Part shown: piece after piece, positions 21,499 to 38,334 of the stretch | Layout of the letters: each line of letters begins with the position of its first letter | How positions within the stretch are numbered: the first letter of the stretch is position 1 | Source: a virus | Virus record (IMG/VR): IMGVR_UViG_3300045993_000477 | Span: 1-45,313 of that record | Reading direction: 5' to 3' (one strand) | Length of the DNA stretch: 45,313 nt | The notes under the pieces: generated by a model | What the model was told of the DNA's origin: nothing | Seen by the model: only the letters and a program-made list of their open reading frames with translations | The model's database searches: none | Translations under genes and position numbers: made by a program

Positions 21499-21502
21499 GG
21501 TG

Positions 21503-22157: not shown

Positions 22158-22173
22158 GTTATGCTCCTATAAT

Positions 22174-23418: not shown

Positions 23419-23639
23419 GGAGGACCTTTCCGCGCAATGGCTATGAGTTGGCTGACGGTAGATTGAACGGTGTTGTACTGTTGAGCGATAAGCCTTTGCG
23501 GAAGTCCTTGATTGGATAGTCGTAACATCTCTAGCATTACGTCCGGGGTCCCCGCAAGTGATCGACTGTTTTGTTCTTTCGGCAGCCACCTACAATTACT
23601 AGGTTCGTAGTTTCCGTTGTTGTTAAAAGTGTTGCTCAT
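23397..23639 (-). CDS. Truncated HNH/AP2-type homing endonuclease remnant with HTH tail
   Basis: 80 residues. It begins with the very end of an HNH domain (NNNGNYEPSNCRWLPKEQNS) and lacks the front half with its catalytic histidines. The gene at 25071 shows a full version of this fold. The C-terminal half (SNQGLPQRLIAQQYNTVQST) looks like a helix-turn-helix DNA-binding end, usual in such endonucleases. The start overlaps the polymerase stop (TAATG). It is probably a decaying mobile gene, or a leftover DNA-binding protein. Confidence 0.6.
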   Translation of the reverse strand: MSNTFNNNGNYEPSNCRWLPKEQNSRSLAGTPDVMLEMLRLSNQGLPQRLIAQQYNTVQSTVSQLIAIARKGPPWETLTR

Positions 23640-25078: not shown

Positions 25079-25493
25079 GCTGCCGCCGATTGTTAGCTTG
25101 CTCGGTCCAAGTGGCCCAACAGCAGTTAGCTTTATTGTAGTTTACGTTTGAGTCTTTACGTTCTAGCGTTAGGCCTTCAATCCAGCTAGGCCAGAGGTCT
25201 TTGTAAAAGTTTTTGAATTGCTTCCACTCGGCACTATAAGTAACACCGCGCTCCCCGTACCAGTGATACTGAGTACTGTTCGGATTATCACAGCGAGTTT
25301 TCATGTTGCACCAAGCTAGGTAAAAAGGATGGTGCTTGTGTAGGCCTAGTCTAGCAAGTTCTCCATGTTCCATTGATTGAAAGCCGGGCAGAGTGGCGTT
25401 AACATCTTGCCCTTTCATCAGGCGTTTGTAGTGCTTACCACACAGCCCGCGAGCAAAAGTTTCCTTCATACAATCATCAGCGTAGCAAAACAT
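25071..25493 (-). CDS. HNH-type homing endonuclease inserted in the DNA polymerase gene
   Basis: 140 residues. N-terminal cysteine cluster (CYADDCMKETFARGLCGKHY, a small zinc-binding module), then YLAWCNMKTRCDNPNS and YHWYGERGVTYSAEWKQFKN and finally NYNKANCCWATWTEQANNRR. This is the W-x-M-x-x-RC ... YGxRG ... NY-x-x-x-NCRWAT order of phage HNH/AP2-type homing endonucleases. It overlaps the exonuclease half by one base (TAATG) and the polymerase half by eight bases, and uses the end of the first half as its ribosome site (GAGGAG). Confidence 0.8.
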   Translation of the reverse strand: MFCYADDCMKETFARGLCGKHYKRLMKGQDVNATLPGFQSMEHGELARLGLHKHHPFYLAWCNMKTRCDNPNSTQYHWYGERGVTYSAEWKQFKNFYKDLWPSWIEGLTLERKDSNVNYNKANCCWATWTEQANNRRQHE

Positions 25494-26506: not shown

Positions 26507-26961
26507 GACGGTTCCTTTAACCAAGCCCCGTCGGTTTTAGTTTTAATGCGACTGATTGCGGAAGGGTTAACTGCATAGGTACGAGCTATGCTGCTGTTAC
26601 TTAGTCCTAGTGAAAGTAATTTACGAATCTTAAGGACTTGCTCTTCTGTTAATTTACCTGAGGCACTTTGGCGCCCGTGAGGCAGTCGCCCTTTAGTCGC
26701 AGCATCCTGCATATTAGCTTGTCGAGTACCCGCAATAAGATGTGCAGGATTTAGGCAATTTCTTACATCGCAAGTGTGCATTACGTCCAGCCCTGTAGGC
26801 ACCTCTCCGTGGTATAACTTGTATACTAATCTGTGTACTCCCTGGGGGCGACCTTCGTGACGTAGCTGCCCGTAACCATTGTCGCTTTGACTTCCTAGCC
26901 ACAGATGACACGTAGCAGTTACTTGTGTTTTAGATTTGAGCTTTTGCTCCAGCGTTGCCAT
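26503..26961 (-). CDS. HNH endonuclease (HNH_3 type) with C-terminal HTH
   Basis: 152 residues. CHLWLGSQSDNGYGQLRHEG, VHRLVYKLYHGEVP, VMHTCDVRNCLNPAHLIAGT and RQANMQDAATKGR follow the classical HNH_3 layout, with His in VHR, MHTCD and NPAHL as the likely metal and catalytic set. Residues 100-147 (LTEEQVLKIRKLLSLGLSNS ... AISRIKT) form a helix-turn-helix that probably provides target specificity. It sits directly upstream of the polymerase front half with an ATGA overlap, a third homing-type gene in this locus. Confidence 0.8.
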   Translation of the reverse strand: MATLEQKLKSKTQVTATCHLWLGSQSDNGYGQLRHEGRPQGVHRLVYKLYHGEVPTGLDVMHTCDVRNCLNPAHLIAGTRQANMQDAATKGRLPHGRQSASGKLTEEQVLKIRKLLSLGLSNSSIARTYAVNPSAISRIKTKTDGAWLKEPS

Positions 26962-26962
26962 T

Positions 26963-28300
26963 TCATACTCCCAAAGCTAGGTCGAGTTCGCTTTGCTCTT
27001 TGAGTTTGTTTAATCGACCTACTGCTATGCCGAAGGATGCTTGATCCATCTCGATAGCGGTGGCACGGACCTTGGCTTCATGAGCCGCTGTGAGGATAGG
27101 GCCGCTGCCGCAGAATGGGTCGAGGACAGCTTGACCGGGAAGGCAGGTGCGACTGAGCAAGTCGGCGTAGAGCGCGACAGGCTTCTGCGCAGCGTGTCCA
27201 AGGTTCGTATCAGGCGGGTAGTCCAGCACGTCCCCGAGCATCTTGAGGATAGGCCGCTTTCCTTTAACCGCGTACATTATGGTCTCATACTTCCGTTGAG
27301 GACCCCATTCTGGCCACGGTGCGCGCATCCCGGACTTCTTGTACCAGAGCAGGGGGGTGCGAAAGACCTGCCAGCCCGCGTCCCCGAACGTCTGCTTGAG
27401 GTGGTGGAACCAGTCGATGTCGCAGAATAGGTAGAGGTGAGCCAGGGGCTTGGCGAGGCGGTAGGATTCAGGGGCGAGTACCTTCATGATTTGGAGGAAG
27501 TTCGCCGCGGAGTCTTCGTAGCCGTGACCGCCCGCAGCGAGGCCGCCGGAGTCCCCGAACTCATCTGCGTTCATGCCGTAAGGAGGGTCGGTGAGGATGC
27601 AGTCGAACTGTTCGGAAGGAGCGGCGGCCATCCAGTCGAGGGAGTCTTCGTTCAGTACCTGGTGGAAGTCGGCGGTGAAGGTCCGTCCGACGGCGGCCCC
27701 TAGCGCCCGGTGCTGGTTCTGCGTTTCAGCTTTACGTAAGATCTTAAATGCTTCATCGACGGTTTTCGCTGCTTTGACCGCAGGATTGTCCAGGTGCTTT
27801 GCAACAAGTAATTCCCGCCGTGTGTTTTCTTGATGGATACCTTCGCTGCTCCCGCGAACCTCGAGAGAAATGGCAGCCACGTTAGGAGCCGGTTCGCCTC
27901 GGGTTGCCGCCTGCGCGGTACGAAGGGCCGCGAGGCGAGCGTGGGCGGCTGCACGCTCCTGCCAGGATAGATCGACCCGGTGAATGTTCTCGGATAGCTC
28001 AGCTTCCTCCGCCGCGAGGGGATCGAGGTCGGAGAGGAGGGTGTAAGGGATGAAGTTGCTGCGGACGACTTCTCCATCATGCATGAACTGTCCGCCGAGG
28101 GCATAGAGGTCAGTGATGGCACGGAGCCTGCGCTCTCCGGCGACGAGGTAGTAATCATCTCCAACAATGCGAAGTATGATGGGGTGGAGGAGACCCTGGG
28201 TCGAGATGACCTCGGAGAATTCACGGAGTTTTCCTTCATCAAATGTTCTCCGTTGACGGTCAGGGGCGACTTTGATCGCTTCGATGTGTATGAGCTTCAT
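26963..28300 (-). CDS. ParB-like nuclease domain fused to a DNA adenine/cytosine-N4 methyltransferase
   Basis: 445 residues. Residues 1-110 are a ParB N-terminal (ParB/Srx) domain: LREFSEVISTQGLLHPIIL, YYLVAGERRLRAI (55-61) and LSENIHRVDLSWQE. From about 205 comes an amino-methyltransferase: catalytic motif DPPYG at 238-242, then the SAM loop LDPFCGSG at 393-400, the beta-class order. The fusion is a known phage architecture. It probably methylates phage DNA against host restriction and may have nicking or partition-like activity through the ParB part. It overlaps the membrane gene upstream by four bases. Confidence 0.8.
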   Translation of the reverse strand: MKLIHIEAIKVAPDRQRRTFDEGKLREFSEVISTQGLLHPIILRIVGDDYYLVAGERRLRAITDLYALGGQFMHDGEVVRSNFIPYTLLSDLDPLAAEEAELSENIHRVDLSWQERAAAHARLAALRTAQAATRGEPAPNVAAISLEVRGSSEGIHQENTRRELLVAKHLDNPAVKAAKTVDEAFKILRKAETQNQHRALGAAVGRTFTADFHQVLNEDSLDWMAAAPSEQFDCILTDPPYGMNADEFGDSGGLAAGGHGYEDSAANFLQIMKVLAPESYRLAKPLAHLYLFCDIDWFHHLKQTFGDAGWQVFRTPLLWYKKSGMRAPWPEWGPQRKYETIMYAVKGKRPILKMLGDVLDYPPDTNLGHAAQKPVALYADLLSRTCLPGQAVLDPFCGSGPILTAAHEAKVRATAIEMDQASFGIAVGRLNKLKEQSELDLALGV

Positions 28301-28509
28301 TTTTTATGTAGGTAGTTGAAGAGCCGTCGGAGCGCGTAGCTGCGGACCAGCGAGACTAAGGTAAAAATAATCCCTATGGCGATGTTACTCGACAAAGGGA
28401 TGTGGATTCCGAACCAAGGGAAGACTAGCAACTGGGCGCCTAGGGCCACTATGTATCCAAGCACCACGTTGATAGTGGCTTCGATGAGGGACTCTAGGCG
28501 CGATTGCAT
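28297..28509 (-). CDS. Two-span small membrane protein
   Basis: 70 residues with hydrophobic helices at about 11-30 (INVVLGYIVALGAQLLVF) and 42-56 (NIAIGIIFTLVSLV), then a basic tail (RSYALRRLFNYLHKK). I recognise this family as one very common in phage genomes (DUF7220-like), function unknown. There is no Shine-Dalgarno before the ATG; it lies six bases after the previous stop, so it is probably translated by coupling. Confidence 0.65.
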   Translation of the reverse strand: MQSRLESLIEATINVVLGYIVALGAQLLVFPWFGIHIPLSSNIAIGIIFTLVSLVRSYALRRLFNYLHKK

Positions 28510-28515
28510 AGGAGG

Positions 28516-29001
28516 CTAGCTCGGCAGGACTGAGCCAACGCGCTCTTGAATGGCGTCGTTGTAGAGTTCGTGATTGATTTTCACCATCACGGTCTTACCT
28601 TGCAACTGACGCCACGACCAGGGGACTCCAGCGACGTTAGTACCTGTCGCGTCCCTGTAGTCTTTCTGGCGGCGGTTCTTCCCCTTGGTGTTGTCCAGGC
28701 CGCCTTGGGCGTTCAGGTCCAGGAAGGCGCGGTCAGTCAGGGTCAGTTCTGGCGGGATGCCCAGGCCTTGGACGGATGAAGGGACCTGGATTCGCAGAGG
28801 GATCAGCATGGAGATCCACGGCTTGCCAGCATTGTCGCCTTTGCTGACCGTGCCGGAGTCCGTCTTGATTTCGCCAATTACGGCCAGGTAGAGGCCGTTA
28901 GGCTGGTCAGGATTTTCCGTAGGGAGGGGCGGACGCTTCTCATTTGCTTCGTTGATCTGGGCATCGAGAAAGACCGAGGGATCGAAAGAACTTGTACCCA
29001 T
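28516..29001 (-). CDS. Putative ssDNA-binding-type protein of the recombination block
   Basis: 161 residues, starting MGTSSFDPSVFLDAQINEAN. The core (LYLAVIGEIKTDSGTVSKGD ... PWISMLIPLRIQV) resembles the DUF669/OB-like proteins that accompany Sak4-type ATPases and act as single-strand binding partners. It lies two small genes after the Sak4-like ATPase. AGGAG is well placed. Assignment rests on context and general pattern, not on a firm motif. Confidence 0.45.
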   Translation of the reverse strand: MGTSSFDPSVFLDAQINEANEKRPPLPTENPDQPNGLYLAVIGEIKTDSGTVSKGDNAGKPWISMLIPLRIQVPSSVQGLGIPPELTLTDRAFLDLNAQGGLDNTKGKNRRQKDYRDATGTNVAGVPWSWRQLQGKTVMVKINHELYNDAIQERVGSVLPS

Positions 29002-29058
29002 TTGAGTAACTCCTAGTTTGGGTTTTTGGGAGCATTCAACGCAGCTCCCGGCGCGTAT

Positions 29059-29226
29059 CTAGACGTAATGGGTTTCTCGCTTGGTGACCTTGACGAGGAC
29101 CGTGCCGGGGGAGAACTGGACCTTCGCCGCTTCGAGCAGGAGCTTGATGGCTTCGGCCTGGGTCTTCCCGGCAGGGATGGGAAAGGTTACGGCGGCTGTG
29201 AGGACTACGTAGGATTTCTGGCTCAT
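29059..29226 (-). CDS. Small protein (55 residues), coupled to the ATPase gene
   Basis: Reads MSQKSYVVLTAAVTFPIPAG, then KTQAEAIKLLLEAAKVQF and SPGTVLVKVTKRETHYV: strand, helix, strand. The start overlaps the ATPase stop as ATGA. It is too small for a named domain. The beta-alpha-beta layout could be a small nucleic-acid or partner-binding fold. Confidence 0.6.
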   Translation of the reverse strand: MSQKSYVVLTAAVTFPIPAGKTQAEAIKLLLEAAKVQFSPGTVLVKVTKRETHYV

Positions 29227-30095
29227 GCGCTTACTCCCGCCCGTTTCTTCCAGATATCCATGATCTGGCCGAAGTCCGGAGTGATCTTGCTGCGGTAGCC
29301 CAAGGACCGCGTCTTCGTATCCACGCCGTAAGCTGCGGTGTCCCAGAAGAACTTGTCGGCCTCGCGGGTCGTGTAGATGATGTCACTGAACAGCGTGGGA
29401 ATTTCCGTCGCCAAGGCCTTGCCAATCGCCTTGATCATCACCTTGGTGGTTTGAGTAACCGCGTCGGTTTCCCGGTCCACGTGGGCAGTCATGGCGAAAG
29501 TGCAGGTGAGGCCTTGGGTGCAAAGGCGGAGAAAGTTCATCAAGTTGTTCTGGGCCACGCCGTAGTCGCCTGGGCTGGCCATTGGACGGGAACCGATCTG
29601 CATCTTCATCGCAGCATTCGCTGTTTCCGTCAAGGAATCCATCACGAAGATCTGCTTGGAGGTGAACGCGTCGATAGGACCAAGGACCTTGCCAGTCCGA
29701 TCATCTGTGAAGTTGGAGCAGGATTGCAGGATCTTAAAGAACGCGTTGTTGTCGCCGCCTCGGTTGGAGTCGACGGATTTTGCGAGGGCCTCATAGCTGA
29801 GCTTCCCCACGTTATCTGCCGTCGTCATCAGGGCTTTGAGGGAGATCGGCTTGGTTCCTTGCTGGTGCCAGTAGATGTTCGGCGGCGGTTCCTTCCCGTG
29901 ATCGCGGAAGTAGCCGAGGAGAGTTTCCAATCCGTTCTCGGTGAAGAGGATAGCGACTTCGAAACCATTGGTCGTGGCCCAGTCGCAGAGGGTCCCTATC
30001 GCGTAGGTTTTGCCAGTTCCGCCTAGGCCCATTAAGCAAACCTTAGGTCCGACGAGCTGCTGTGCGTCTTTGGTGATTATTGTGTCCGGTGTCAT
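29223..30095 (-). CDS. Sak4-like RecA-fold ATPase (AAA_24)
   Basis: 290 residues. Walker A GLGGTGKT at 23-30 after a strand KVCLMG; Walker B-like strand KQIFVMDSL in the middle followed by TETANAAMK; then TFAMTAHVDRE, a sensor-type strand. This is the AAA_24/Sak4 pattern of phage single-strand annealing ATPases, which load on or pair ssDNA during replication and recombination. Ribosome site AAGGA; ATGA overlaps on both sides. It fits with the Cas4-like nuclease upstream in the operon. Confidence 0.78.
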   Translation of the reverse strand: MTPDTIITKDAQQLVGPKVCLMGLGGTGKTYAIGTLCDWATTNGFEVAILFTENGLETLLGYFRDHGKEPPPNIYWHQQGTKPISLKALMTTADNVGKLSYEALAKSVDSNRGGDNNAFFKILQSCSNFTDDRTGKVLGPIDAFTSKQIFVMDSLTETANAAMKMQIGSRPMASPGDYGVAQNNLMNFLRLCTQGLTCTFAMTAHVDRETDAVTQTTKVMIKAIGKALATEIPTLFSDIIYTTREADKFFWDTAAYGVDTKTRSLGYRSKITPDFGQIMDIWKKRAGVSA

Positions 30096-30433
30096 GTTGA
30101 TTCCTTGATCAGGTTTTCATAGTAAGCGAGGTGGACGTCGAATTCTCTGGCGATGCACTCGCGGGACAGCTCGTTGAGGTTGTAGGCGATCTCTCCGCAG
30201 AGGAGACTGCCAGGGATACCCCACGGCTCCGGGTGGCTGCGGCAACCGACTTCCGCAATGCGGAAAGGGTAAGGATTGGACGCCTTGTCGGTGAGGACTG
30301 CACGTGCCCAGATGTCTCCGCAGAAGCGGCAGAAGTAAGCTCGGGAAGGCCAGCCCCAGGAGTCTGCGGGTTGAGACGCGTAGGAGAAGGTGCCGAGGAA
30401 AGCTCCCTCCGCGATAATGTAGCCGTTTGGCAT
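30092..30433 (-). CDS. Zinc-finger-like small protein
   Basis: 113 residues from ATG at 30433 (MPNGYIIAEGAFLG), one base after the Cas4-like stop. A longer reading from 30562 overlaps that gene and is unlikely. YFCRFCGDIWARAV (CxxC) and VGCRSHPEP (CxxH) can bind one zinc ion. Such proteins are common beside recombination genes in environmental phages. Function unknown. Confidence 0.6.
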   Translation of the reverse strand: MPNGYIIAEGAFLGTFSYASQPADSWGWPSRAYFCRFCGDIWARAVLTDKASNPYPFRIAEVGCRSHPEPWGIPGSLLCGEIAYNLNELSRECIAREFDVHLAYYENLIKEST

Positions 30434-30434
30434 G

Positions 30435-31355
30435 TCATGCTTCCTCTCCCAGAACCGTTTCGGTCCTTGCCACTGGGTCCCAGCGGCGGCGTTGGAATTG
30501 TTGCGCGAGCAACGGAGCGGGATCGCGCATCTGACAAACTGACTTAAACGGACACCCACCATACTCCGCGCAAGCGTGGTCCAGATTCCAGTCCCAGTAC
30601 CCGGACTCCCAAGCCTGCTTCATCTTGGCTATGTCTCGGAGGAGTTGCTCGTACCATCGCTCTATAAGCCAGGCGGGTCGATAGGTGATGGCTTGAAGGG
30701 TGTCGTATTTGGTTTTAAGAATTGAAACTCCTCGGACAAGGAAGCCATCAAGCTTAATGCCAGCTCGGGCGGCACCCCAGACATAACCAGTGAACTGGCT
30801 ACGTAGATCCCACTGACGAGGCCAGCTGGCTCCAAGCTGCGATGTAGTTTTGTCATCTTCTCCAAGGTGCATCCCCTCGTACTCTACCATCATGTCCATG
30901 CGGCCAGAGTATAAAATTGGCTCACCCGTTTCAGGGTGAAGAATGTCTAGCGGCTCGAGGAAGGAGAACTCGATTCCTCGCTTGCCGCCGGGAAGGGTCA
31001 TGGGGATGGCTCGGTCCTCGCCGAGGCGGTACTGGGAAAAGTAATACTCCAGTGCCCCGGCGGTACGCTCCGCTGACTTGGGAGACTCGGGCGGGCACTC
31101 GAAGTTCCCGTAGGCAGTCAACAACGCGTGGAGGCCGATGGTGAGGGATTCATCAGGGGACTTCCCGTCGATGTAGTAGGCGACTCGGGCTTTCTCAATC
31201 CCGGTTGCGTAGGCTGCTCCGGCGTGAAGGTGGACGGATTGATCCCTCAGCTTATAGTGGTCGATGAATTCGAGCTTGGCTTTTTGAGGGCACGACTTGA
31301 ACGCGGCCATTGTGGTACTGTCGAGTACCTTGGGGAAGGGACTGCGCGCGCTCAC
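30435..31355 (-). CDS. Cas4/AddB-like PD-(D/E)XK nuclease with Fe-S cysteines
   Basis: 306 residues from GTG at 31355 (GTGA overlap, CGGAG upstream). LDSTTMAAFKSCPQKAKLEF gives the N-terminal Cys22. GRMDMMVEYEG has Asp154, and EDDKTTSQ has the Asp168-x-Lys pair of the PD-(D/E)XK core; RSQFTGYVWGA is the QxxxY motif. Cysteines at 262, 268 and 274 (CAEYGGC, PFKSVC) complete a four-Cys iron-sulphur cluster as in Cas4 and AddB. This is the 5' or 3' exonuclease that creates single strands for the Sak4-like ATPase. There is no CRISPR nearby. Confidence 0.8.
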   Translation of the reverse strand: MSARSPFPKVLDSTTMAAFKSCPQKAKLEFIDHYKLRDQSVHLHAGAAYATGIEKARVAYYIDGKSPDESLTIGLHALLTAYGNFECPPESPKSAERTAGALEYYFSQYRLGEDRAIPMTLPGGKRGIEFSFLEPLDILHPETGEPILYSGRMDMMVEYEGMHLGEDDKTTSQLGASWPRQWDLRSQFTGYVWGAARAGIKLDGFLVRGVSILKTKYDTLQAITYRPAWLIERWYEQLLRDIAKMKQAWESGYWDWNLDHACAEYGGCPFKSVCQMRDPAPLLAQQFQRRRWDPVARTETVLGEEA

Positions 31356-31657
31356 AGTGCTGACTCCGGGGAGTAGCTCAAGCAAGCCAGGTCCGTACAG
31401 CGTTCCTTCAACTCCTTCACTTCCTGCTCGGTGTTGGCCAGGGTAGACTGGATGCGCTTGTTCAATTCCGCCAAGGCCGGACCCACACATTGCTCCGGCG
31501 TGGGTAGCTCGATCTCCACTGCTCCGACTTCCAGGGAATTCTCCGGCGCCTTCTCCCCGTCTTGCCGAACGGCCCAGTGCCAGGAATACGGAGACTCTGA
31601 GTTGCCCTTGGCGAGTTTCTCCAACCCGTCCGCTGTCACGTAGATGTGAACTTTCAT
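31352..31657 (-). CDS. Hypothetical protein with C-terminal coiled coil
   Basis: 101 residues. N-terminal beta strands (MKVHIYVTADGLEKLAKG), a predicted loop, and a helical end (ALAELNKRIQSTLANTEQEV) with three cysteines near the terminus. AAGGAG is well placed; GTGA overlap with the nuclease gene. No known domain. Confidence 0.6.
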   Translation of the reverse strand: MKVHIYVTADGLEKLAKGNSESPYSWHWAVRQDGEKAPENSLEVGAVEIELPTPEQCVGPALAELNKRIQSTLANTEQEVKELKERCTDLACLSYSPESAL

Positions 31658-31714
31658 ACTAACTCCTTCTTACTCGCTGGTGGGACTGCGCCAGCACAGA
31701 ATTTGGTTGACCGC

Positions 31715-31945
31715 TTACAGACCCTCAAGCTCCGCCAGCATATCAGCCTGGGGCGGAGGTGCCGTGCGCTTGCTAGCTGCTGCGCCACGCTTGGCAGCTC
31801 CCGCCGCCTGGGATGCTGCCATGCGACCTGCGCGAAGGTAGGTTACGGCTTCCTTCATTTCGTCGAGGGTCAAGGTGCCTTCGGCAGCGCGGAGTCTCCA
31901 ATTGGAGATCTTAGATTGAAGTTCCAGGGGTATCGGTCCGCTCAT
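31715..31945 (-). CDS. Small Ala/Arg-rich helical protein
   Basis: 76 residues. A helical N-terminus (LELQSKISNWRLRAAEGTLT, LDEMKEAVTYLRAGRM), then a basic Ala/Lys/Arg stretch (AAGAAKRGAAASKRT) that could touch DNA, then an acidic end. It resembles small proteins that phages encode next to Cas4/Sak4 modules. Coupled by ATGA to the membrane peptide upstream. Confidence 0.6.
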   Translation of the reverse strand: MSGPIPLELQSKISNWRLRAAEGTLTLDEMKEAVTYLRAGRMAASQAAGAAKRGAAASKRTAPPPQADMLAELEGL

Positions 31946-32073
31946 AATAATCTCGCTGGTTTAGTGCAGTTGGTTGATGGGGAAGCGTAGAGGTGGTAGA
32001 TCACTGGCACGGCGGCTAGGATAGCCAGACCGAGGAGGATCAGCACCAACGCCTTGATTGCTCGGTCGATCAT
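31942..32073 (-). CDS. 43-residue single-span membrane protein
   Basis: Reads MIDRAIKALVLILLGLAILA then AVPVIYHLYASPSTN: one strong hydrophobic helix and a short C-terminal tail. ATGA overlaps on both ends show it belongs to the operon. Function unknown; membrane placement is clear from the sequence. Confidence 0.6.
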   Translation of the reverse strand: MIDRAIKALVLILLGLAILAAVPVIYHLYASPSTNCTKPARLL

Positions 32074-32336
32074 GGAAGGAGTTTCCTCAAGGCTTCAATT
32101 GCCTCGGGACTCCCGCGAACCAAGAACGCACCTGGCGCTGAGCCTGCCCAGGGAGCTAGATCCACCGACTGCTCGGTGAAGTACCCTCGGAGGAGATCAA
32201 TCATAAAGCGAGAGTACCCGCCGTGAGGAACTCGCTGCTCGAGCTCAGAGAACAGATGCGCGCCGAGCTGGGTGTATAAAGGAAGCGGCAAAGCCACATT
32301 GAGTGGCTGGGAAGGAATCGCATTGGGCCTTTTCAT
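32070..32336 (-). CDS. Small protein with ribbon-helix-helix-like layout
   Basis: 88 residues. LNVALPLPLYTQLGAHLF has the strand-helix opening of ribbon-helix-helix proteins, then HGGYSRFMIDLLRGYF as a second helix, then a tail. It could be a small DNA-binding regulator. Sequence conservation with known Arc/CopG proteins is not evident, so this is a guess from layout. Confidence 0.5.
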   Translation of the reverse strand: MKRPNAIPSQPLNVALPLPLYTQLGAHLFSELEQRVPHGGYSRFMIDLLRGYFTEQSVDLAPWAGSAPGAFLVRGSPEAIEALRKLLP

Positions 32337-32524
32337 AGGTCATCCCAGTCTTGATCCAACTCCGGATCATCGCGTTCCTCGACTTCCCACAGGTGGCCTT
32401 GGAGGCTCGCGCTGAGGACATTAGCCACGGCGGCTTCGGAGTCCCCGTCCAGGACCACTTCTGTGAAGTCCTCTAGGGGCATTCCTGGACCCACGCGAGG
32501 TCGGATGTGTAGTTTAATTGTCAT
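32333..32524 (-). CDS. Small acidic protein
   Basis: 63 residues with a strand-rich start (MTIKLHIRPRVGPGM) and a very acidic tail (EERDDPELDQDWDDL). The strongly negative tail could mimic DNA or bind a basic partner. Ribosome site GGAAG; four-base overlaps with both neighbours. No family recognised. Confidence 0.6.
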   Translation of the reverse strand: MTIKLHIRPRVGPGMPLEDFTEVVLDGDSEAAVANVLSASLQGHLWEVEERDDPELDQDWDDL

Positions 32525-33120
32525 ATGACTTCCCTTATAGCATTGATGGTTTTGATTGATAGCTCAGGCAGTACGTTAGTCCCTGCGGGGAGGTTGAAGA
32601 AACTGAACGGGATTGCTCCGGGAGGGGAAGCGAAGGTGGTAGCTTCCACGAGTTCTACTGCGTCCAAGGTCCCTTCGCCATAGTAGGCGGCGACCAGGAC
32701 CTTGGCGGCGGATACATGCAAGTCGCGGAGGACCAGATCCATCTCCATTGTGCGGGAAGTATTCCAGGGACGCTTGCCGGAGGACACGGGTTCGAAGGAA
32801 GGAGCGCCCCAGACGCCCGTAACGTACTCGCTGGTTTGCGTGGGGATCTCTGTGAACTCGCGGACGAGACGCCTTGCTCCGGGGAAGTGCTTGTTGGTGT
32901 ACTCTGTGAAGGTGCCGAGGAGTCGCTTCGTCTCCTGGTGGACTAGGGCGAGACTTCGCTGGGCCACCCAGTTGCTGTGGAGGTTAATCTCCAGCGTGGG
33001 TTCGGTTTGCCGACGCTCTTTGGGTTCTGCTGCCCTGCGCTCCTGCTGCCTCTGCATGGCGGAGCGCGCTTCTTTAAACAACTCGTCGAGCGACAAGGAG
33101 GAAAGGTCTTGGTTTGACAT
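32521..33120 (-). CDS. First gene of the replication operon, function unknown
   Basis: 199 residues. N-terminal helical, basic part (SLDELFKEARSAMQRQQERR) and a longer mixed C-terminal part (residues 45-199) with no clear motif. It is the first gene behind promoter P1 (33191-33218), so it is probably made very early. The ribosome site sits in the sequence GAGGCTC shared with other first genes of ECF-type operons. No signal peptide or membrane helix. Confidence 0.6.
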   Translation of the reverse strand: MSNQDLSSLSLDELFKEARSAMQRQQERRAAEPKERRQTEPTLEINLHSNWVAQRSLALVHQETKRLLGTFTEYTNKHFPGARRLVREFTEIPTQTSEYVTGVWGAPSFEPVSSGKRPWNTSRTMEMDLVLRDLHVSAAKVLVAAYYGEGTLDAVELVEATTFASPPGAIPFSFFNLPAGTNVLPELSIKTINAIREVI

Positions 33121-33190
33121 AGGTTGAGCCTCAAGTTGGTGTAATGTTCGCTGGGGTTATACAATCATAATTCCCGCACATTACACCCCA

Positions 33191-33218
33191 TTAGACGCGG
33201 ACTCCCGCAAAAAGTTCC
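33191..33218 (-). promoter_or_regulatory. ECF sigma-E type promoter P1 for the replication operon
   Basis: On the minus strand: GGAACTT, 15-base spacer, GTCTAA. Upstream of the -35 box is an AT-rich palindrome (GGAAATATATTTGG) that could act as an UP element. Predicted transcription start near 33185, about 65 bases before the 33120 gene, and the whole 20613-33120 block may lie downstream. Confidence 0.8.
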
Positions 33219-33249
33219 CGAGCTTTCCAAATATATTTCCAGACACTCG

Positions 33250-33288
33250 GGGAAGTCGGGTGGCAACTGCAAATCGCTCCGACTTCCC
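33250..33288. other. 10-bp perfect inverted repeat upstream of P1
   Basis: GGGAAGTCGG and CCGACTTCCC flank a 19-base loop. No T-run follows. It lies between the end of the 33378 gene and promoter P1 and may be a terminator-like RNA end for the upstream operon or a protein-binding site. Confidence 0.5.
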
Positions 33289-33322
33289 GCCTATGCCCCC
33301 AGGAGGCTCAATCACTGGGTAA

Positions 33323-33338
33323 AGGGAGACAGCTCCCT
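33323..33338 (-). terminator. Hairpin terminator candidate after the 33378 gene
   Basis: On the minus strand AGGGAG, loop CTGT, CTCCCT, followed by TTTA. The stem is 6 bp with a 4-base loop, and the T-tract is weak. A second hairpin (33362-33377, stem CCCCT/AGGGG) abuts the stop codon of the 33378 gene. Together they probably separate the early operon from P1. Confidence 0.45.
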
Positions 33339-33377
33339 CTCCGGAAGGGACGCTTGCGCATCCCCTCGAGACAGGGG

Positions 33378-34022
33378 TTAGATCTCGCTGAGTGCTTCGT
33401 CGGCGTCGACCTTGGCAGTCTTGGCCAGCTTGGCCTCCTCGAGGCGCTTGATGATAACGCCAGTCTTGGTGCCAGCCACGCGGAAGGAATCGTACAACGC
33501 ACGACGGGTAAGGCCTTCGTCGGAGTCCAGCTTCTTCTGCAAATACGCCTTGACAGTCGCCAGGTCCTTGCCGGTTGCTTCGCAGATAGCCTGGACGACG
33601 ATGCTGGCGCCGGAGACGGAGCCGCCTTGACCAGCTGCCCGACCAGCACCCCACTTGCCAGATTGAATCTGAGCATTCAAGTCGTCGATTGCCAGAACCA
33701 TGTCTTCTTCGGTCAGTGGCTTGTCAGCAGTAGTCGCCAGCTCATCACCGAATTTCTGTTCCGCTCCATGCCCCGCGAAGCGAGCGAGCAAGGCCAAGGG
33801 CAGCGCCATCGTGCGCGTCTCCCCATTCCGGAAGTCCATACGGATGCTGATAGCCCCCGCCTGGACCTGCATCACATCGCCTTCTACCGCGATCAAGGAT
33901 TCATTAAGCAACGTCTCCTTGACCACTTTTCTCTTCCCGGCGAAACTCACCGTGCGACCGTCAGTCATCACAACGTCTTGATACTCGGTGGTTTTCTTGG
34001 GAACTTTTACTTCGTCATTCAT
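33378..34022 (-). CDS. Early protein of unknown function
   Basis: 214 residues. The first part is beta-rich (TVSFAGKRKVVKETLLNESL, VEGDVMQVQAGAISIRMDF), the middle has ALPLALLARFAGHGAEQKFG, and the last 75 residues are helical with GLTRRALYDSFRV, a layout that may include a DNA-binding end. The ribosome site is TAGGAG. It is the last gene of the operon that starts at P2, with terminator-like hairpins after it. I have seen similar proteins in environmental phages but know no function. Confidence 0.6.
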   Translation of the reverse strand: MNDEVKVPKKTTEYQDVVMTDGRTVSFAGKRKVVKETLLNESLIAVEGDVMQVQAGAISIRMDFRNGETRTMALPLALLARFAGHGAEQKFGDELATTADKPLTEEDMVLAIDDLNAQIQSGKWGAGRAAGQGGSVSGASIVVQAICEATGKDLATVKAYLQKKLDSDEGLTRRALYDSFRVAGTKTGVIIKRLEEAKLAKTAKVDADEALSEI

Positions 34023-34125
34023 CTCGTAACTCCTATATGAAGCCCTTTATAATGGGCGGCTTCGAAATTCCCGTAGCAGGCTGAGCCTACAGCGGAAGGA
34101 GGACTCGCCTCCCTCGACTGTGGGT
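34023..34125. other. Hairpin-rich gap between two early genes
   Basis: 103 bases with three small inverted repeats: GAAGCC/GGCTTC, GTAGGCT with its near-mirror AGCCTGCTAC, and GGAGG/CCTCC. No promoter match to the ECF pattern. It may process or attenuate the P2 transcript. Confidence 0.35.
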
Positions 34126-34356
34126 TCAATTCTCTCCGTCCACGATGGCCTGGATCTCCATGCCCAGATCCTCGGCGGCTTCGATTGCCGTATCGAGAAG
34201 TTCCAGCTCCCCGGTCAGTTCCTCGTACTTCGGAGAATCCTCATTCATCTCGTCCAAGCGCGCTTGCTCAAGCTCCTGCAGTTCTTTGAGCTTGGCCTCA
34301 ATAACTTCCAGCTCGGTGACTTGCTTCGCGAGTTCTTTCTTTGTTGCTACAAGCAT
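34126..34356 (-). CDS. Small coiled-coil early protein
   Basis: 76 residues, one long acidic coiled coil (LAKQVTELEVIEAKLKELQE, ELTGELELLDTAIEAAEDLG). GGAGAGAG is the ribosome site. First gene behind promoter P2, only about 28 bases from the predicted transcript start. Could bind and redirect a host protein; no family. Confidence 0.65.
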   Translation of the reverse strand: MLVATKKELAKQVTELEVIEAKLKELQELEQARLDEMNEDSPKYEELTGELELLDTAIEAAEDLGMEIQAIVDGEN

Positions 34357-34389
34357 TTTCTCTCTCCAATTAGTTGATTGATGAAATTG

Positions 34390-34417
34390 TTAGACGGGTT
34401 CTTTGTCCATTAGTTCC
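34390..34417 (-). promoter_or_regulatory. ECF sigma-E type promoter P2
   Basis: Minus strand: GGAACTA, 15-base spacer, GTCTAA, with G before the -35 box and C after the -10. Predicted start near 34384, driving 34126-34356 and 33378-34022. Confidence 0.75.
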
Positions 34418-34434
34418 CCAGAATTCCGGTTTAT

Positions 34435-34707
34435 TTAATCCGCCTCGGGATAATCGCGCGAGGATTCCGTCAAGGTCTTCTCCAGCGCCTCTTCAATCTT
34501 CCAGCGTTCTTCCTCTGTCATTTTCCGTTCCAGCCACTCCGCATACCGTCCCTTGCGGTCGAGGATCTGAAACTCCACTTCCGCTGGATCGTCCGGGAGC
34601 CAGTTGTCAATATGTCCCCTTCGCCCATCCCGGAAGGGGGCGTAGCTAATCAACTCCGCTTGGCAGGGGATGCCGCTAACCTTACAAGCAATCGTAATAT
34701 CACTCAT
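34435..34707 (-). CDS. Small early protein
   Basis: 90 residues from ATG at 34707 (MSDITIACKVSGIPCQAELI), GGGA upstream. An earlier ATG at 34734 lies in the previous gene. The first 60 residues are beta-rich and the rest helical and charged (MTEEERWKIEEALEKTLTES). It overlaps the previous gene by eight bases. Function unknown. Confidence 0.6.
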   Translation of the reverse strand: MSDITIACKVSGIPCQAELISYAPFRDGRRGHIDNWLPDDPAEVEFQILDRKGRYAEWLERKMTEEERWKIEEALEKTLTESSRDYPEAD

Positions 34708-34900
34708 TTCCCTGCTCCCTAGTCGCCTGGGCAATCCAAGCTGTCAGCCGCTCAATCCTCGATTGATTGTAGATGACTAGGGCCTCCGCATACTCCGCTC
34801 CGGATTCCGCAGCGAGCTTCTCCCGCTGCGCATCGACCAGCTCCAACACCGCTAGCTCCAGCGGAGTCGAGCGGATAAACAATTTCATAAGCCAGTTCAT
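34700..34900 (-). CDS. Small helical early protein
   Basis: 66 residues (MNWLMKLFIRSTPLELAVLE...), helical throughout, with AAGGAG upstream. It looks like the small phage proteins with a LAVxELxDAQREKL core that occur in gene arrays. Four-base overlap with the gene before it. Confidence 0.6.
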   Translation of the reverse strand: MNWLMKLFIRSTPLELAVLELVDAQREKLAAESGAEYAEALVIYNQSRIERLTAWIAQATREQGNE

Positions 34901-35082
34901 TTGAATGCTCCTTCAAGATAAATAATAAGCCATCTCGCATAGCCTGTCGCCAAGCGATGCCCTTCAAACACAAAGAAGTCAAGCTGGTCTTCCTCCGCTT
35001 GCTGCCATGCTAGGTGAAGCGAGCGGAGCTTCGCCGGAGTCCAGGAGACTGCGGGAGGTTGAGTCCCTTGGTCGCTCAACAT
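34897..35082 (-). CDS. Small early protein
   Basis: 61 residues from ATG at 35082 (MLSDQGTQPPAVSWTPAKLR; GGGAG upstream). Helical core with LHLAWQQAEEDQLDFFVFEG. Coupled to both neighbours by overlaps. No family. Confidence 0.55.
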   Translation of the reverse strand: MLSDQGTQPPAVSWTPAKLRSLHLAWQQAEEDQLDFFVFEGHRLATGYARWLIIYLEGAFK

Positions 35083-35189
35083 ACTAGCTCCCGTAGGATC
35101 ACATAGCACCCATCGCTGGGCATCACAGCTAGCCAGACTACCAGCGCCAGCGCCCAGAGGATCAGGGCATCACGGTCTTCCTTGCTCAT
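35076..35189 (-). CDS. 37-residue membrane peptide
   Basis: Starts MSKEDRDALILWALALVVWL; one hydrophobic helix (about residues 8-23) and a tail with two cysteines (GCYVILRELVC). GGGAGG lies before the ATG. Longer upstream reading frames lack signals. Function unknown. Confidence 0.6.
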   Translation of the reverse strand: MSKEDRDALILWALALVVWLAVMPSDGCYVILRELVC

Positions 35190-35398
35190 GGTGCCTCCCA
35201 GTATGTCACTGGGTTGATGATGTAATCCGACGCAGCGTAGTAATCCAGTCGCCCGTCTTCGTAGATTATCCCGTAGGAGTCCTGGCCGTTGAAGCGATTC
35301 TGATACTTCACCACCTTCATCACGCGGACGTGATCGCCTGGATACCAGCCATCCCCGGCGATGCACTTGTCCGCAATTTCCTTAGTCACGGTACTCAT
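35186..35398 (-). CDS. Small early protein
   Basis: 70 residues (MSTVTKEIADKCIAGDGWYP...). It has several Tyr, Asp and Gly residues and strands (DSYGIIYEDGRLDYY). The pattern suggests a compact beta fold of SH3-like size. GGGAG upstream, ATGA overlaps at both ends. No assignment. Confidence 0.6.
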   Translation of the reverse strand: MSTVTKEIADKCIAGDGWYPGDHVRVMKVVKYQNRFNGQDSYGIIYEDGRLDYYAASDYIINPVTYWEAP

Positions 35399-35538
35399 TG
35401 CTTAATCTCCCAGTTCGCGAAGCCCGCACATTCCTCCGCAGTCTCACAAGTCGCGTACACATGCTTGCTGTACACCTCCCCGACCGCGAAGCCGAGGCAG
35501 AATAGTAGGACCAGCGCAATCCCTCGAGCGGCCTTCAT
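35395..35538 (-). CDS. 47-residue secreted or membrane protein, tandem paralogue B
   Basis: MKAARGIALVLLFCLGFAVG is an N-terminal membrane helix or signal-like segment; then EVYSKHVYATCETAEECAGF. It shares GFA.GEVY.KH.Y.TC.T..EC.G...W.I with the next gene upstream. Two cysteines five residues apart may pair in the periplasm. Starts by ATGA overlap with its paralogue. Confidence 0.65.
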   Translation of the reverse strand: MKAARGIALVLLFCLGFAVGEVYSKHVYATCETAEECAGFANWEIKQ

Positions 35539-35678
35539 TCCCCGATCCTCCATCCACTCACTCCTTCACACTCACTGTCCGTCGTACACGTTGAGTAGAG
35601 GTGTTTGATGTAAACCTCTCCGGACGCGAAGCCCAGGAAGAAGATCACGGCCAAGGCGGCCACCCAGCGCGCTTTCAC
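35535..35678 (-). CDS. 47-residue secreted or membrane protein, tandem paralogue A
   Basis: GTG start (GTGA overlap, AGGTG upstream). MKARWVAALAVIFFLGFASG is the membrane or signal segment, then EVYIKHLYSTCTTDSECEGV. It is the same length and layout as the 35395 gene, so the pair arose by tandem duplication and then diverged. Possible role in the host envelope early in infection, such as blocking superinfection; inferred only. Confidence 0.65.
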   Translation of the reverse strand: MKARWVAALAVIFFLGFASGEVYIKHLYSTCTTDSECEGVSGWRIGE

Positions 35679-35830
35679 GCTGTCACCTGCAGTTCATGCC
35701 GACGAAGGCCTGTAGGAGCACGCGGCGGCGGAGCTGGTTGCTTTGGTTCCTGCGACCACGGAGCGCGTTCCCGCTTGTCCCAGTTTGTCTGGCCATCCTT
35801 AGTCGGATTATTGCTTGGTTGCTTGTTCAT
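35675..35830 (-). CDS. Small proline-rich, basic early protein
   Basis: 51 residues from ATG at 35830 (MNKQPSNNPTKDGQTNWDKR), then a Pro-rich tail (KQPAPPPRAPTGLRRHEL). Probably disordered. First gene behind promoter P3; its ribosome site lies in GAGGCTC. A reading from 35890 would start inside the predicted transcript start area and is unlikely. Confidence 0.6.
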   Translation of the reverse strand: MNKQPSNNPTKDGQTNWDKRERAPWSQEPKQPAPPPRAPTGLRRHELQVTA

Positions 35831-35893
35831 AAGAGCCTCAGTTGGTTGATTGATTGATTCGCGTTGATTATGTCCGCATAATCCCCGCACACA

Positions 35894-35921
35894 TTAGACG
35901 CTTGCTGGCCATCAAAGTTCC
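35894..35921 (-). promoter_or_regulatory. ECF sigma-E type promoter P3
   Basis: Minus strand: GGAACTT, 15-base spacer, GTCTAA, flanked by GG before and T after. Predicted start near 35888, about 58 bases before the 35830 gene. It lies in the gap after the HTH gene and heads a run of nine small genes (35830 to 34435). Confidence 0.8.
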
Positions 35922-35930
35922 CCAGTTTCA

Positions 35931-36338
35931 TCATCGTGCACCATAAGCTTTCGTCTTATCCATCACGCTCTGCTCCACTCCGAGCGTCTTCGCTTCTTGC
36001 GCCAGCCGGGACAGGCCACTCGGCGGCTGCTCATCTGCCTCTGGCTCCCCTAGCCCCTTAAGCATACTTTCCTGCAGCGCCAGCAGCCGCTCCGCCGTGT
36101 CATCCAGTTCCCTCTTCGAGCTGGCCGCTGGCCCTACCCCTTGCCACACTTCTCCTCTGACAATCCGCCCTATCTGCACGACACTCACGCCGTAATCCCT
36201 GGCCAGCTGCCCTTGCGTCACATGGCCCTGGTTGTAGAAAGCCCGAATCTCCTGCACCTTCGTCATCGTCAGCACGGCTCGGCGCAAGTTATTCTTTTGA
36301 AACGGCCCGTTACCCAGGCTTGGTGTATCAGCATTCAT
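35931..36338 (-). CDS. HTH DNA-binding protein
   Basis: 135 residues from ATG at 36338 (GGAG upstream inside the previous stop region); an ATG at 36353 has no such site. Residues 22-70 read VLTMTKVQEIRAFYNQGHVT, then GQLARDYGVSVVQIGRIVRG and EVWQGVG. This is the HTH of HNH-associated or resolvase-like regulators. The remainder is helical and acidic with SRLAQEAKTLGV. A candidate early transcription regulator, next to the EndoVII-like gene. Confidence 0.65.
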   Translation of the reverse strand: MNADTPSLGNGPFQKNNLRRAVLTMTKVQEIRAFYNQGHVTQGQLARDYGVSVVQIGRIVRGEVWQGVGPAASSKRELDDTAERLLALQESMLKGLGEPEADEQPPSGLSRLAQEAKTLGVEQSVMDKTKAYGAR

Positions 36339-36339
36339 A

Positions 36340-36687
36340 TCAATAATCTCCATGTTGTTTCAAATAAGCCAATAAATTTCTCAGTACAATTCTATTATCC
36401 TGAATCTTCCCCAGCAAGCGATTACATTCTCCACACAGCAGCCCTCGCACATCCTCCTCCTCACACGGGCGGCCCTCCACGTGCCTATGATCCACTTGTG
36501 GTTTAAGTCCAAACTTCCCCATGTCCTTAATCGTCGGGTGTGCCAGTCCCTTCTCACAGCCCGCACACTTCCCTTCTTGCCTTTCATAAAACACTTTCCA
36601 TTTCTCATGCGTCAGTTTATACGCTTTCCAAGCATCCTGCATCCAGGTTTTAGGCGCCCAGCCCCAGGGTACTAACTCTTGTGCCAT
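36340..36687 (-). CDS. Recombination endonuclease VII-like (T4 gp49 family)
   Basis: 115 residues from ATG at 36687 (AAGGAG upstream; an ATG at 36717 is earlier but lacks a site). KCAGCEKGLAHPTIKD, KPQVDHRHVEG, VRGLLCGECNRLLGKIQDN and LRNLLAYLKQHG follow the Endonuclease VII layout: two CxxC zinc pairs, the catalytic VDHxH, and the CNxxLG helix. It resolves branched DNA before packaging. It is the first gene after the long leader of promoter P4. Confidence 0.8.
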   Translation of the reverse strand: MAQELVPWGWAPKTWMQDAWKAYKLTHEKWKVFYERQEGKCAGCEKGLAHPTIKDMGKFGLKPQVDHRHVEGRPCEEEDVRGLLCGECNRLLGKIQDNRIVLRNLLAYLKQHGDY

Positions 36688-36726
36688 ATCAACTCCTTGG
36701 TTAAAAAACAACAACACCGCACACTC

Positions 36727-36853
36727 GCATAGCTCAACCTTCCGGGTTTTCTAAAGCCCTAGACAGTATTTGTATTATGAGAAAAAAAATATATAACTTA
36801 AATAGAGTCAATTCTTTTTCGAGGGAATAAATATTCGGTACGTTGAGCTATGC
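36727..36853 (-). repeat. Inverted repeat around an AT-rich loop in the P4 leader
   Basis: GCATAGCTCAAC at 36727-36738 and GTTGAGCTATGC at 36842-36853 form a perfect 12-bp stem, with AACAAC/GTTGTT runs just outside. The 103-base loop is strongly AT-rich (about 36770-36835). The whole structure would be in the 180-base leader RNA of P4, or may mark a replication origin or protein-binding region. Confidence 0.55.
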
Positions 36854-36872
36854 GCGTTGTTGTTGTTGTTTA

Positions 36873-36900
36873 TTAGACGCGCATCTTCCCGAAAAGTTCC
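36873..36900 (-). promoter_or_regulatory. ECF sigma-E type promoter P4
   Basis: Minus strand: GGAACTT, 15-base spacer, GTCTAA, with G before and T after. Upstream of the -35 box is an AT-rich GGAAAATAAA stretch. Predicted start near 36867, giving a leader of about 180 bases before the EndoVII-like gene. Confidence 0.8.
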
Positions 36901-36966
36901 CTTTATTTTCCAAGGGTTTCGGAAGCGACAAAAGGGCCTTTCGACCCTTTTACTGTCCAATTACTC

Positions 36967-37089
36967 TCAGCCCCGCGCCGCTTTTGCCCATTTGACGTAG
37001 ATCAGAAATTGATTAAACGTCAGCGGTTTTGCCCTTGCTACGCGCATCCGAGCTTTGTGCTCTAACCATCCATCAATAAGTTCATTCAT
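36967..37089 (-). CDS. 40-residue basic early protein
   Basis: Starts at ATG 37089 (MNELIDGWLEHKARMRVARA, AAAGGAG upstream), then KPLTFNQFLIYVKWAKAARG. Basic and helical; it may bind nucleic acid or a host factor. ATGA overlap with the papain-like gene. No family. Confidence 0.6.
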   Translation of the reverse strand: MNELIDGWLEHKARMRVARAKPLTFNQFLIYVKWAKAARG

Positions 37090-37517
37090 GATAACTCCTT
37101 TAAAAGTTGTTCCATCCGTTTGATTTTCAACAGCGTGGTTTCTGTAACTTTCCAAACTCGCACCAACGTCGTGCTTGCTCGAGATGTGTTATCCCAGTCT
37201 AGAACGACCCCATTCACAACTGCGAAAGCGTGTCCGTGCTTATGTACAATAAACCGTCCCGTTTTCGCCACTTCCAGAAAGGCTTCTAACCGCAGCCCCT
37301 CTGCCATTGTAACCCGCTTCATTCCAAGCACCTCCTCATGCACTCGAATCGAGACGGCTACATCAGTCCCCTTTTTCATCCGCCGCCCGCCCGCGCTGAA
37401 CGTCATACTCGCGATCTCGTAGCTAGTTCCAGTTGCGCTCATCAGCGCGCGAATCGAGCAGTCTGCCTTGTCTGCGAATGGCCGCGGCTGGCCATAGCTT
37501 GTGCTGTCCTTTTTCAT
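37086..37517 (-). CDS. Papain-like fold protein, putative cysteine protease
   Basis: 143 residues. FADKADCSIRALMSATG has the catalytic-type Cys20 at the start of a helix, and RFIVHKHGHAFAVVNGVVLD has the His (about residue 95) and a following Asp. This is the arrangement of papain-like proteins found widely in phages. It is early (behind P5), so it may cleave a host protein, or be an inactive binder. The C-terminus is a helical basic stretch. Ribosome site GGAGGCTC. Confidence 0.6.
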   Translation of the reverse strand: MKKDSTSYGQPRPFADKADCSIRALMSATGTSYEIASMTFSAGGRRMKKGTDVAVSIRVHEEVLGMKRVTMAEGLRLEAFLEVAKTGRFIVHKHGHAFAVVNGVVLDWDNTSRASTTLVRVWKVTETTLLKIKRMEQLLKELS

Positions 37518-37583
37518 CCTGAGCCTCCATATCGAGCAACATCGCTCGGCGGAGCGGCCTCATAAACCGCTCGACCTAGCCTG

Positions 37584-37979
37584 TTACATCGAGGCCAGTT
37601 CAGCCATCAACTTCTCGTTATACCAAGCCATCGCCTCGGCATACGACTTCCCGAGCTTGGTGGCAATTGCCTGAATCGCCGGGTTGATGGGCGCTGCCTT
37701 GGGCGCAGCCACCTTCATATTCCACTCGAGGTTAGCCGCGTTTTCATAAAACCCCACCATCGCCTCCACCTCCGCGCGCCTCATCGCCTCGGTAATGGTG
37801 AAGTTATTCGATGCGTCCTTGGTCAGCGCCGCCGAATCCCCGATACGCGCTGCCATCCCATGCAGTGCCGCGTATTCGTAGTTAGCCGCTGACATCTTCT
37901 CCGCGTTGAACGTGATGGAATCCAGTCCATCAAACGTGAACGTTACCGAGCGAGCAGCTGTGTTAATTGTCTTTTTCAT
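37584..37979 (-). CDS. Early protein of unknown function
   Basis: 131 residues. The N-terminus is a beta hairpin (MKKTINTAARSVTFTFDGLD, SITFNAEK), then a helical region (ANYEYAALHGMAARIGDSAA) and a C-terminal helix pair (IQAIATKLGKSYAEAMAWYN). I recognise similar proteins from other environmental phages without known function. First gene after promoter P5; ribosome site GAGGCTC. Confidence 0.65.
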   Translation of the reverse strand: MKKTINTAARSVTFTFDGLDSITFNAEKMSAANYEYAALHGMAARIGDSAALTKDASNNFTITEAMRRAEVEAMVGFYENAANLEWNMKVAAPKAAPINPAIQAIATKLGKSYAEAMAWYNEKLMAELASM

Positions 37980-38057
37980 AATGAGCCTCTTTAAAAAACC
38001 CGGTCAAGTCGCCGGACAATGCCGCCTGTCACGCGGCATCATTCGATGTATTAACTG

Positions 38058-38085
38058 TTAGACGGATAGTTTCGTTCGAAGTTCC
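38058..38085 (-). promoter_or_regulatory. ECF sigma-E type promoter P5
   Basis: Minus strand: GGAACTT, 15-base spacer, GTCTAA. Seven bases upstream of the -35 is the palindrome ATTGTAACAAT (38092-38102), in the same register as at P6. Predicted start near 38052, about 73 bases before the 37979 gene. Confidence 0.75.
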
Positions 38086-38088
38086 GTC

Positions 38089-38106
38089 TAAATTGTAACA
38101 ATCAAT
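38089..38106. repeat. 18-bp direct repeat with palindrome, copy at P5
   Basis: The sequence taaattgtaacaatcaat occurs here and at 38338-38355, each time 3 bases beyond the -35 box of a promoter. The ATTGTNACAAT core is palindromic, as expected for a dimeric regulator or an UP element. At P5 it overlaps the stop of the 38102 gene. Confidence 0.6.
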
Positions 38107-38263
38107 GAGCTTTAACATCCGATTGAAGCTCAAGCTCCATCGCCTGAAACAGTGCATAATAACAAGCCTGCTCATTACCACGTACCCACTCCAGCTCAGC
38201 CTGGTTCCGAAACCAGCCGATTAAAAATCCGTAAGTCTTTGGGTATCGTTGTGCATTGTTCAT
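38102..38263 (-). CDS. 53-residue early protein, first gene of the early region
   Basis: Starts MNNAQRYPKTYGFLIGWFRN, then a helical end (LEWVRGNEQACYYALFQAME). GAGGCAC precedes the ATG. It is the outermost early gene, about 38 bases downstream of the predicted P6 transcript start, and so may be among the first made. No family. Confidence 0.6.
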   Translation of the reverse strand: MNNAQRYPKTYGFLIGWFRNQAELEWVRGNEQACYYALFQAMELELQSDVKAH

Positions 38264-38306
38264 TGTGTGCCTCGTTGGTTGTGTTGTTGTGCGTTATGCG
38301 CAGGTA

Positions 38307-38334
38307 TATGACGCATGGCATTGATGGAAGTTCC
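38307..38334 (-). promoter_or_regulatory. ECF sigma-E type promoter P6 (weaker -10)
   Basis: Minus strand: perfect GGAACTT, 15-base spacer, then GTCATA instead of GTCTAA. Upstream has the same 18-bp repeat as P5. Predicted start near 38301, before the 53-residue gene. Confidence 0.6.

Follow-up and report, generated by a model that had tools for sequence, protein, structure and literature searches.

Phages are generally described as starting transcription with the host housekeeping sigma factor or, like N4 and phiKZ, by injecting a polymerase. In phage N4, a giant virion protein, the virion RNA polymerase (vRNAP), is ejected to transcribe the early genes at once (PMC4496689). Phages phiEco32 and 7-11 produce a free sigma factor after infection for their middle and late genes, which have the promoter TAATGTATA (PMC4331800); their early genes are transcribed with host sigma-70. 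A survey of large polyvalent proteins proposes that they enter the cell along with the DNA and jump-start transcription or replication (PMC5512222). Among bacterial promoters, those of sigma-E (RpoE) in E. coli and Salmonella carry a −35 box GGAACTTTT and a −10 box GTCAAA (PMC1804206), and the −10 box in Neisseria is TCTAA (PMC2893595). Here we analyze a sequence of 45,313 nucleotides from an uncultured bacterial virus (IMG/VR record IMGVR_UViG_3300045993_000477, positions 1 to 45,313; the window) that contains a family of putative promoters of the extracytoplasmic function (ECF) sigma factor type, together with a large virion-type protein that has an ECF sigma domain embedded in it.

The exact motif GGAAC-N17-GTCTAA was found seven times in the window, five times on the minus strand and twice on the plus strand, and the same two boxes gave zero matches at spacings 8–16 and 18–29. 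This motif is the GGAACTT-N15-GTCTAA of the original prediction wherever TT is present, and rescanning the window reproduced all of the coordinates and sequences given there, as well as the count of seven at a single spacing. An independent-base model predicts 0.019 exact sites on both strands, in agreement with the earlier hand estimate of about 0.02, and Markov simulations of the window produced no exact site in 198 of 200 runs and one site in the other two. When two mismatches were allowed, the number of matches was not above chance (13 compared with 9.7 expected); therefore, the strength of the motif lies in its exact boxes. In an unsupervised whole-window search for spaced word pairs, the motif took first place, and in relatives G006, G008, G023, and G030 the same search ranked it first or close to first. 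We are confident, to the point of near certainty, that the promoter family is real.

The individual sites (Table 1) largely match their first description as near-perfect copies, with the exception of 34390, which reads GGAACTA instead of GGAACTT. Site 38307 had been singled out as weaker and is so by virtue of its −10 box; GTCATA variants occur also in relative G021. All six minus-strand sites lie ahead of start codons as proposed, at measured distances of 33–185 bases (taken from the end of the −10 box), and a purine-rich, Shine-Dalgarno (SD)-like stretch is present between the −10 box and the ATG at each of them. Two amendments to the list were needed. A plus-strand copy at 38626 had been overlooked, and 23241, which is antisense within the primase open reading frame (ORF) and was not found in relatives, is probably a chance match and should be dropped. 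Site 15042 stands, and its counterpart downstream of the big virion gene is kept in G002, G003, G004, G006, and G008. At 38056–38092, a plus-strand GTCTAA in inverted orientation overlaps the 38058 promoter, giving a near-symmetrical arrangement, GTTAGACGG...CCGTCTAA.

A motif scan of relatives had been suggested as a check, and it showed that both position and spacing are conserved. Relatives were gathered by scanning for the Sak4-type protein, which yielded 53 loci; these contained 56 exact sites at spacing 17, one at 18, and none at 15, 16, or 19. Across 33 family contigs and all spacings from 8 to 30, there were 69 sites at N17 compared with five at all others (three at N18, one at N13, one at N26). 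The family consensus consists of an A-rich upstream stretch, GGAACT(T/A), and GTCTAA(T/C); among non-redundant sites, position 15 of the spacer is a purine in 31/31 and position 17 a pyrimidine in 28/31. Most family sites belong to the early region and are oriented with its genes, apart from one divergent copy, and L013, L017, L018, and L019 have exact divergent-strand sites at the place corresponding to 38626. The 35894 promoter has a near-identical counterpart at 2420 in relative L009, and in the G030 lineage the −10 box has drifted to GTC(A/T/G)AA. A naive ORF caller placed 37/68 sites outside its ORFs, a figure to be read in light of the caller's tendency to over-call genes (coding fraction 0.96–0.98).

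The proposed RpoE-type identity of these sites is supported by the published boxes, by the E. coli spacing, and by conservation in relatives. The window −35 box equals the published sigma-E −35, the −10 box is a GTCTAA variant, and the overall length of 28 bases is that of the E. coli micA, degP, and rpoH sites; with a GGAACTT-like −35, a GTC-type −10, and fixed spacing, the sites have the features of sigma-E-type promoters. On sequence grounds, ECF/RpoE-type promoters appear to be the best explanation of the sites. The early region showed no enrichment of sigma-70 promoters (3, against 4.0 expected), and an Rfam search gave no match. The sites were originally assigned to the early minus-strand operons. 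Five exact sites are indeed located there, but copies also precede the rightward terminase operon and the gene that follows the big virion protein. The label "early" for the minus-strand block is itself suggested by gene content.

The original prediction also referred to an embedded sigma, and a complete ECF sigma factor, with regions 2 and 4, was found within a 1370-amino acid (aa) ORF. The domain scored 87.9 bits against the NCBIfam sigma70-ECF model (TIGR02937; cut-off, 42.9) and 80.7 bits against the RpoE equivalog (TIGR02939), below that model's cut-off of 236; among named families, TIGR02939 gives the top score or one of the top scores for the sigma domains of relatives. Of the structures in the PDB, E. 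coli sigma-E and P. aeruginosa AlgU are the closest to the window domain. AlphaFold modeled the sigma part as two confident domains separated by a low-confidence linker, and modeled region 4 superimposed on its sigma-E counterpart in complex with −35 DNA at a root-mean-square deviation of 1.1 Å. The recognition helix reads TVRSQVFRAKE in the window and TVRSRIFRARE in sigma-E. Residues R171, S172, F175, and R176 of sigma-E contact −35 DNA, and all four are retained in the window domain; the E. coli sequence used for this comparison agrees with the PDB alignment. Sigma fusions are also present in the big ORFs of G002, G003, G006, G008, G009, G015, G022, G023, and G030, and sigma profiles detected no free-standing sigma in the window or its relatives, only those in big ORFs.

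The big ORF is preceded by the tail-tube and head-closure genes and followed by the tail spikes, and relatives point to 10938 as the true start of its protein. The C-terminal region recurs in proteins of 1,046–3,144 aa from other phage contigs, some with a sigma domain, some with a PcfJ-like domain, and some with neither. A fold model of this region, of moderate confidence (mean predicted local distance difference test score of 70), gave BFVD matches to annotated internal virion proteins (Vibrio phage VP2, Pantoea phage LIMElight) and to large polyvalent proteins; a PDB fold search with the same model gave no match. The virion gene neighborhood and the related fold suggest that this is an internal virion or ejection protein. 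Module exchange and structural matches to LPD proteins are consistent with a polyvalent protein, and no Pfam LPD match was found in the window protein. Homologs at L228, L229, L230, and L231 have a PcfJ-like domain and lack the sigma domain, which suggests module exchange in the big-protein family. The N terminus (10938–11050, plus strand) contains a short repeat, FIAEEEALG / FISEEEATG, and relatives have repeat pairs of their own (FITEAEAF/FIDEREATG, ILSFEEAM twice, and FIPAEQLLG/FKSAEELLG); possibly, the repeat is a packaging tag.

We lean toward the view that the phage's own ECF sigma, ejected from the particle, primes early transcription from these promoters. The big protein, with regions 2 and 4 of its fused RpoE-like domain joined by a flexible linker, would be packaged in the particle and ejected ahead of or together with the DNA. 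The sigma domain would then capture host core RNA polymerase at once, and the polymerase would be steered both to the early block of minus-strand genes and to the divergently oriented packaging operon. The sigma gene is a late, virion-type gene and could, therefore, act on early genes only if the particle delivers its product. The sequence supports the presence and conservation of the promoters, the completeness of the ECF domain, its sigma-E-like recognition residues, and the virion-type setting; packaging and ejection, activity in the fusion (or after processing), and early timing are presumed. On balance, the promoters probably belong with the virion-protein sigma, with a small further chance that they are used jointly by it and host sigma-E.

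Sigma domains and promoters tend to occur together. In the near-complete or long contigs G000, G006, G008, G009, G015, G022, G023, and G030, fused sigmas with R171, S/T172, and R176 accompany the promoters. The distant sigma fusions with changed contact residues (K and Q in G066, S172V in G067) have no GGAAC-N17-GTCNAA site, and a search of both for alternative repeated promoter motifs found none that was convincing. The distant sigma-less homologs G045, G051, G058, and G060 have zero exact sites. Two or more exact sites were present in 9/12 contigs above 25 kb with a sigma compared with 0/7 without (hand-calculated Fisher p of approximately 0.002, for thresholds set after the data had been seen and for contigs that are related). 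It is somewhat probable, in our judgment, that this is a phage lineage with an injected sigma, in which the particle supplies promoter specificity, the early genes need neither host sigma-70 nor sigma-E, and promoters and contact residues co-vary.

Several observations weigh against a virion-borne sigma as the reader of these promoters. G019 has a complete big protein without a sigma domain, but four to five early-region sites, with a drifted −35 box (mostly TGAACTT). Its contig lacks the terminase-portal part, roughly 6–7 kb judging by relatives; a separate sigma could be encoded in the missing part, and a search for contigs completing the genome found none. In sigma-less G040, two or three weak sites were seen. 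An IMG/VR scan also revealed an unrelated group of phages of approximately 60 kb (G068, 59.8 kb; G072; G074) that have several RpoE-like promoters but lack a recognizable sigma; therefore, host sigma-E can plausibly serve such promoters. Furthermore, the contigs and genomes compared are related, so their counts are not independent observations. Two other features of these sigma-less phages were recorded. G068 encodes a polyvalent protein with FtsK_gamma and LPD39 domains and no sigma (L359, 2129–7711, plus strand), and G040 (L212–L214) has four near-perfect copies of the palindrome CCGGGTAYAAT-N-ATTRTACCCGG (1852, 6050, 31637, and 47176), perhaps an operator or alternative control element.

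The main rival, a genuine but lesser possibility, is that host RpoE holoenzyme, freed or induced by envelope damage on phage entry, reads the promoters and that the virion sigma domain has another or a minor role. The −35 box matches the E. coli sigma-E consensus exactly, the −10 box differs from it by one base, the spacing is equal, and the sigma-less G019 and the G068 group have similar arrays. However, host reading leaves unexplained why the same phages retain a sigma-E-like domain with conserved DNA-contact residues and why sites are absent from phages in which those residues are altered. In unstressed cells, sigma-E is normally bound by RseA and so locked. The family's spacer preferences at positions 15 and 17 also contrast with 5/10 and 2/10 in the G068 group, a comparison that is suggestive only because five E. 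coli sites, inspected by eye, gave 4/5 and 2/5. A shared arrangement, in which an initial burst driven by the ejected phage sigma is supplemented by host sigma-E or by a phage factor acting later, and in which the phage has copied the host promoter code, seems unlikely to us. The promoters do fit both specificities, and some sigma-less relatives keep weaker versions; a host search via bacterial genomes returned only a short contig from a Pseudomonadota metagenome-assembled genome (MAG) and a Verrucomicrobiales MAG contig, which was not decisive.

We give little credence to the idea that the two-box element is an operator, or a replication or packaging site, for a phage DNA-binding protein. Intergenic, spaced, repeated elements can be operators, but these have no palindrome, keep a fixed strand relative to the genes, follow an A-rich stretch, and combine exact ECF boxes and spacing with a downstream SD and start codon. 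Chance or base composition probably accounts for one of the seven sites, 23241, and as an explanation for the family it has practically no standing against seven sites where 0.02 were expected and conservation in relatives that already refutes it.

Table 1. Promoter-type sites, sigma domain, and associated features of the window
Feature	Positions	Strand	Details
ECF-type promoter GGAACTTTTTGCGGGAGTCCGCGTCTAA	33191..33218	-	−10 end to ATG (33120), 70 bases
ECF-type promoter GGAACTAATGGACAAAGAACCCGTCTAA	34390..34417	-	−10 end to ATG (34356), 33 bases; GGAACTA
ECF-type promoter GGAACTTTGATGGCCAGCAAGCGTCTAA	35894..35921	-	−10 end to ATG (35830), 63 bases
ECF-type promoter GGAACTTTTCGGGAAGATGCGCGTCTAA	36873..36900	-	−10 end to ATG (36687), 185 bases
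ECF-type promoter GGAACTTCGAACGAAACTATCCGTCTAA	38058..38085	-	−10 end to ATG (37979), 78 bases
Weaker ECF-type site	38307..38334	-	−10 GTCATA; 43 bases to small-ORF ATG (38263)
Divergent ECF-type site GGAACTTTTTGCTCGAAACGCGGATCTAA	38626..38654	+	Spacer longer by 1 base; ahead of 38711 gene and terminase operon; score 19.0
ECF-type promoter	15042..15069	+	Between big virion gene and next plus-strand gene
Exact motif match, probably chance	23241..23268	+	Antisense within primase ORF; not found in relatives
Large modular virion-type (polyvalent/ejection-like) protein	10938..14993	+	ORF opens at 10881 (1370 aa)
Sigma-70 region 2	12348..12548	+	aa 490-556 of 1370-aa ORF; E=1.8e-8; 34.5 bits (cut-off 24)
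Sigma-70 region 4 (r4_2)	12684..12842	+	aa 602-654; E=8.7e-16; 57.8 bits (cut-off 25.7)
C-terminal helical region	12957..14990	+	Common to sigma-bearing and sigma-less relatives
Minus-strand block behind promoters	20810..38263	-	Small genes closest to sites; farther: nuclease, Sak4-type annealing protein, ParB-methyltransferase, DNA polymerase A, primase/helicase

Within the minus-strand block, the DNA polymerase A gene (23639–26524) is interrupted by an HNH endonuclease ORF (25071–25493), which leaves it as two ORFs, and relative G083 has a single 982-aa ORF at this place; the arrangement resembles the insertion of a homing endonuclease or an intron. Another HNH ORF is present at 26503–26961, and 26963–28300 (minus strand) encodes a DNA methyltransferase fused to a ParB-like domain.

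An injected sigma, if true, would represent a third strategy for taking control of transcription from the very start of infection. It would bypass both host sigma-70 control and the RseA lock on sigma-E, and it would add a transcription-specificity module to the polyvalent-protein concept. Matched sigma/promoter pairs could be used in synthetic biology, and the claim is testable with one domain and a few promoters. Literature searches limited to open-licence papers found no virion-borne sigma, and sigma factors are not mentioned in a review of ejection proteins (PMC8954989).

Compared with known systems, the phage sites share the GGAACTT −35, the GTC of the −10, and the 28-base length with E. 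coli and Salmonella sigma-E promoters; they differ in having GTCTAA nearly always in place of GTCAAA, a conserved spacer purine and pyrimidine, and a location in the phage early region. The big protein resembles T7 gp16-type ejection proteins in gene position, in size, and in its fold resemblance to annotated internal virion proteins rather than in demonstrated sequence homology, and it differs from them in carrying an ECF sigma. Like the polyvalent proteins of Iyer et al. 2017 (PMC5512222), it appears to be a large multidomain late-gene product in a virion neighborhood with swapped modules (PcfJ-like, sigma, and others) and a similar C-terminal fold; that survey mentions no sigma domain (0 matches for "sigma"), and the window protein has one. 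The phiEco32 and 7-11 sigmas likewise redirect host RNA polymerase to phage promoters, but they are free, made after infection, and serve middle and late genes, whereas the sigma described here is fused into a virion-type protein. The likeness to N4 vRNAP is that of a giant virion protein ejected for immediate early transcription, with ejection only proposed here. N4 delivers a whole single-subunit polymerase that reads hairpin promoters, whereas the window protein would supply host core RNA polymerase with only a sigma domain; a domain search of the big ORF found no single-subunit RNA polymerase domain of the N4 type. The kinds of component are already known, and an injected sigma would be a new form of virion-borne transcription takeover.

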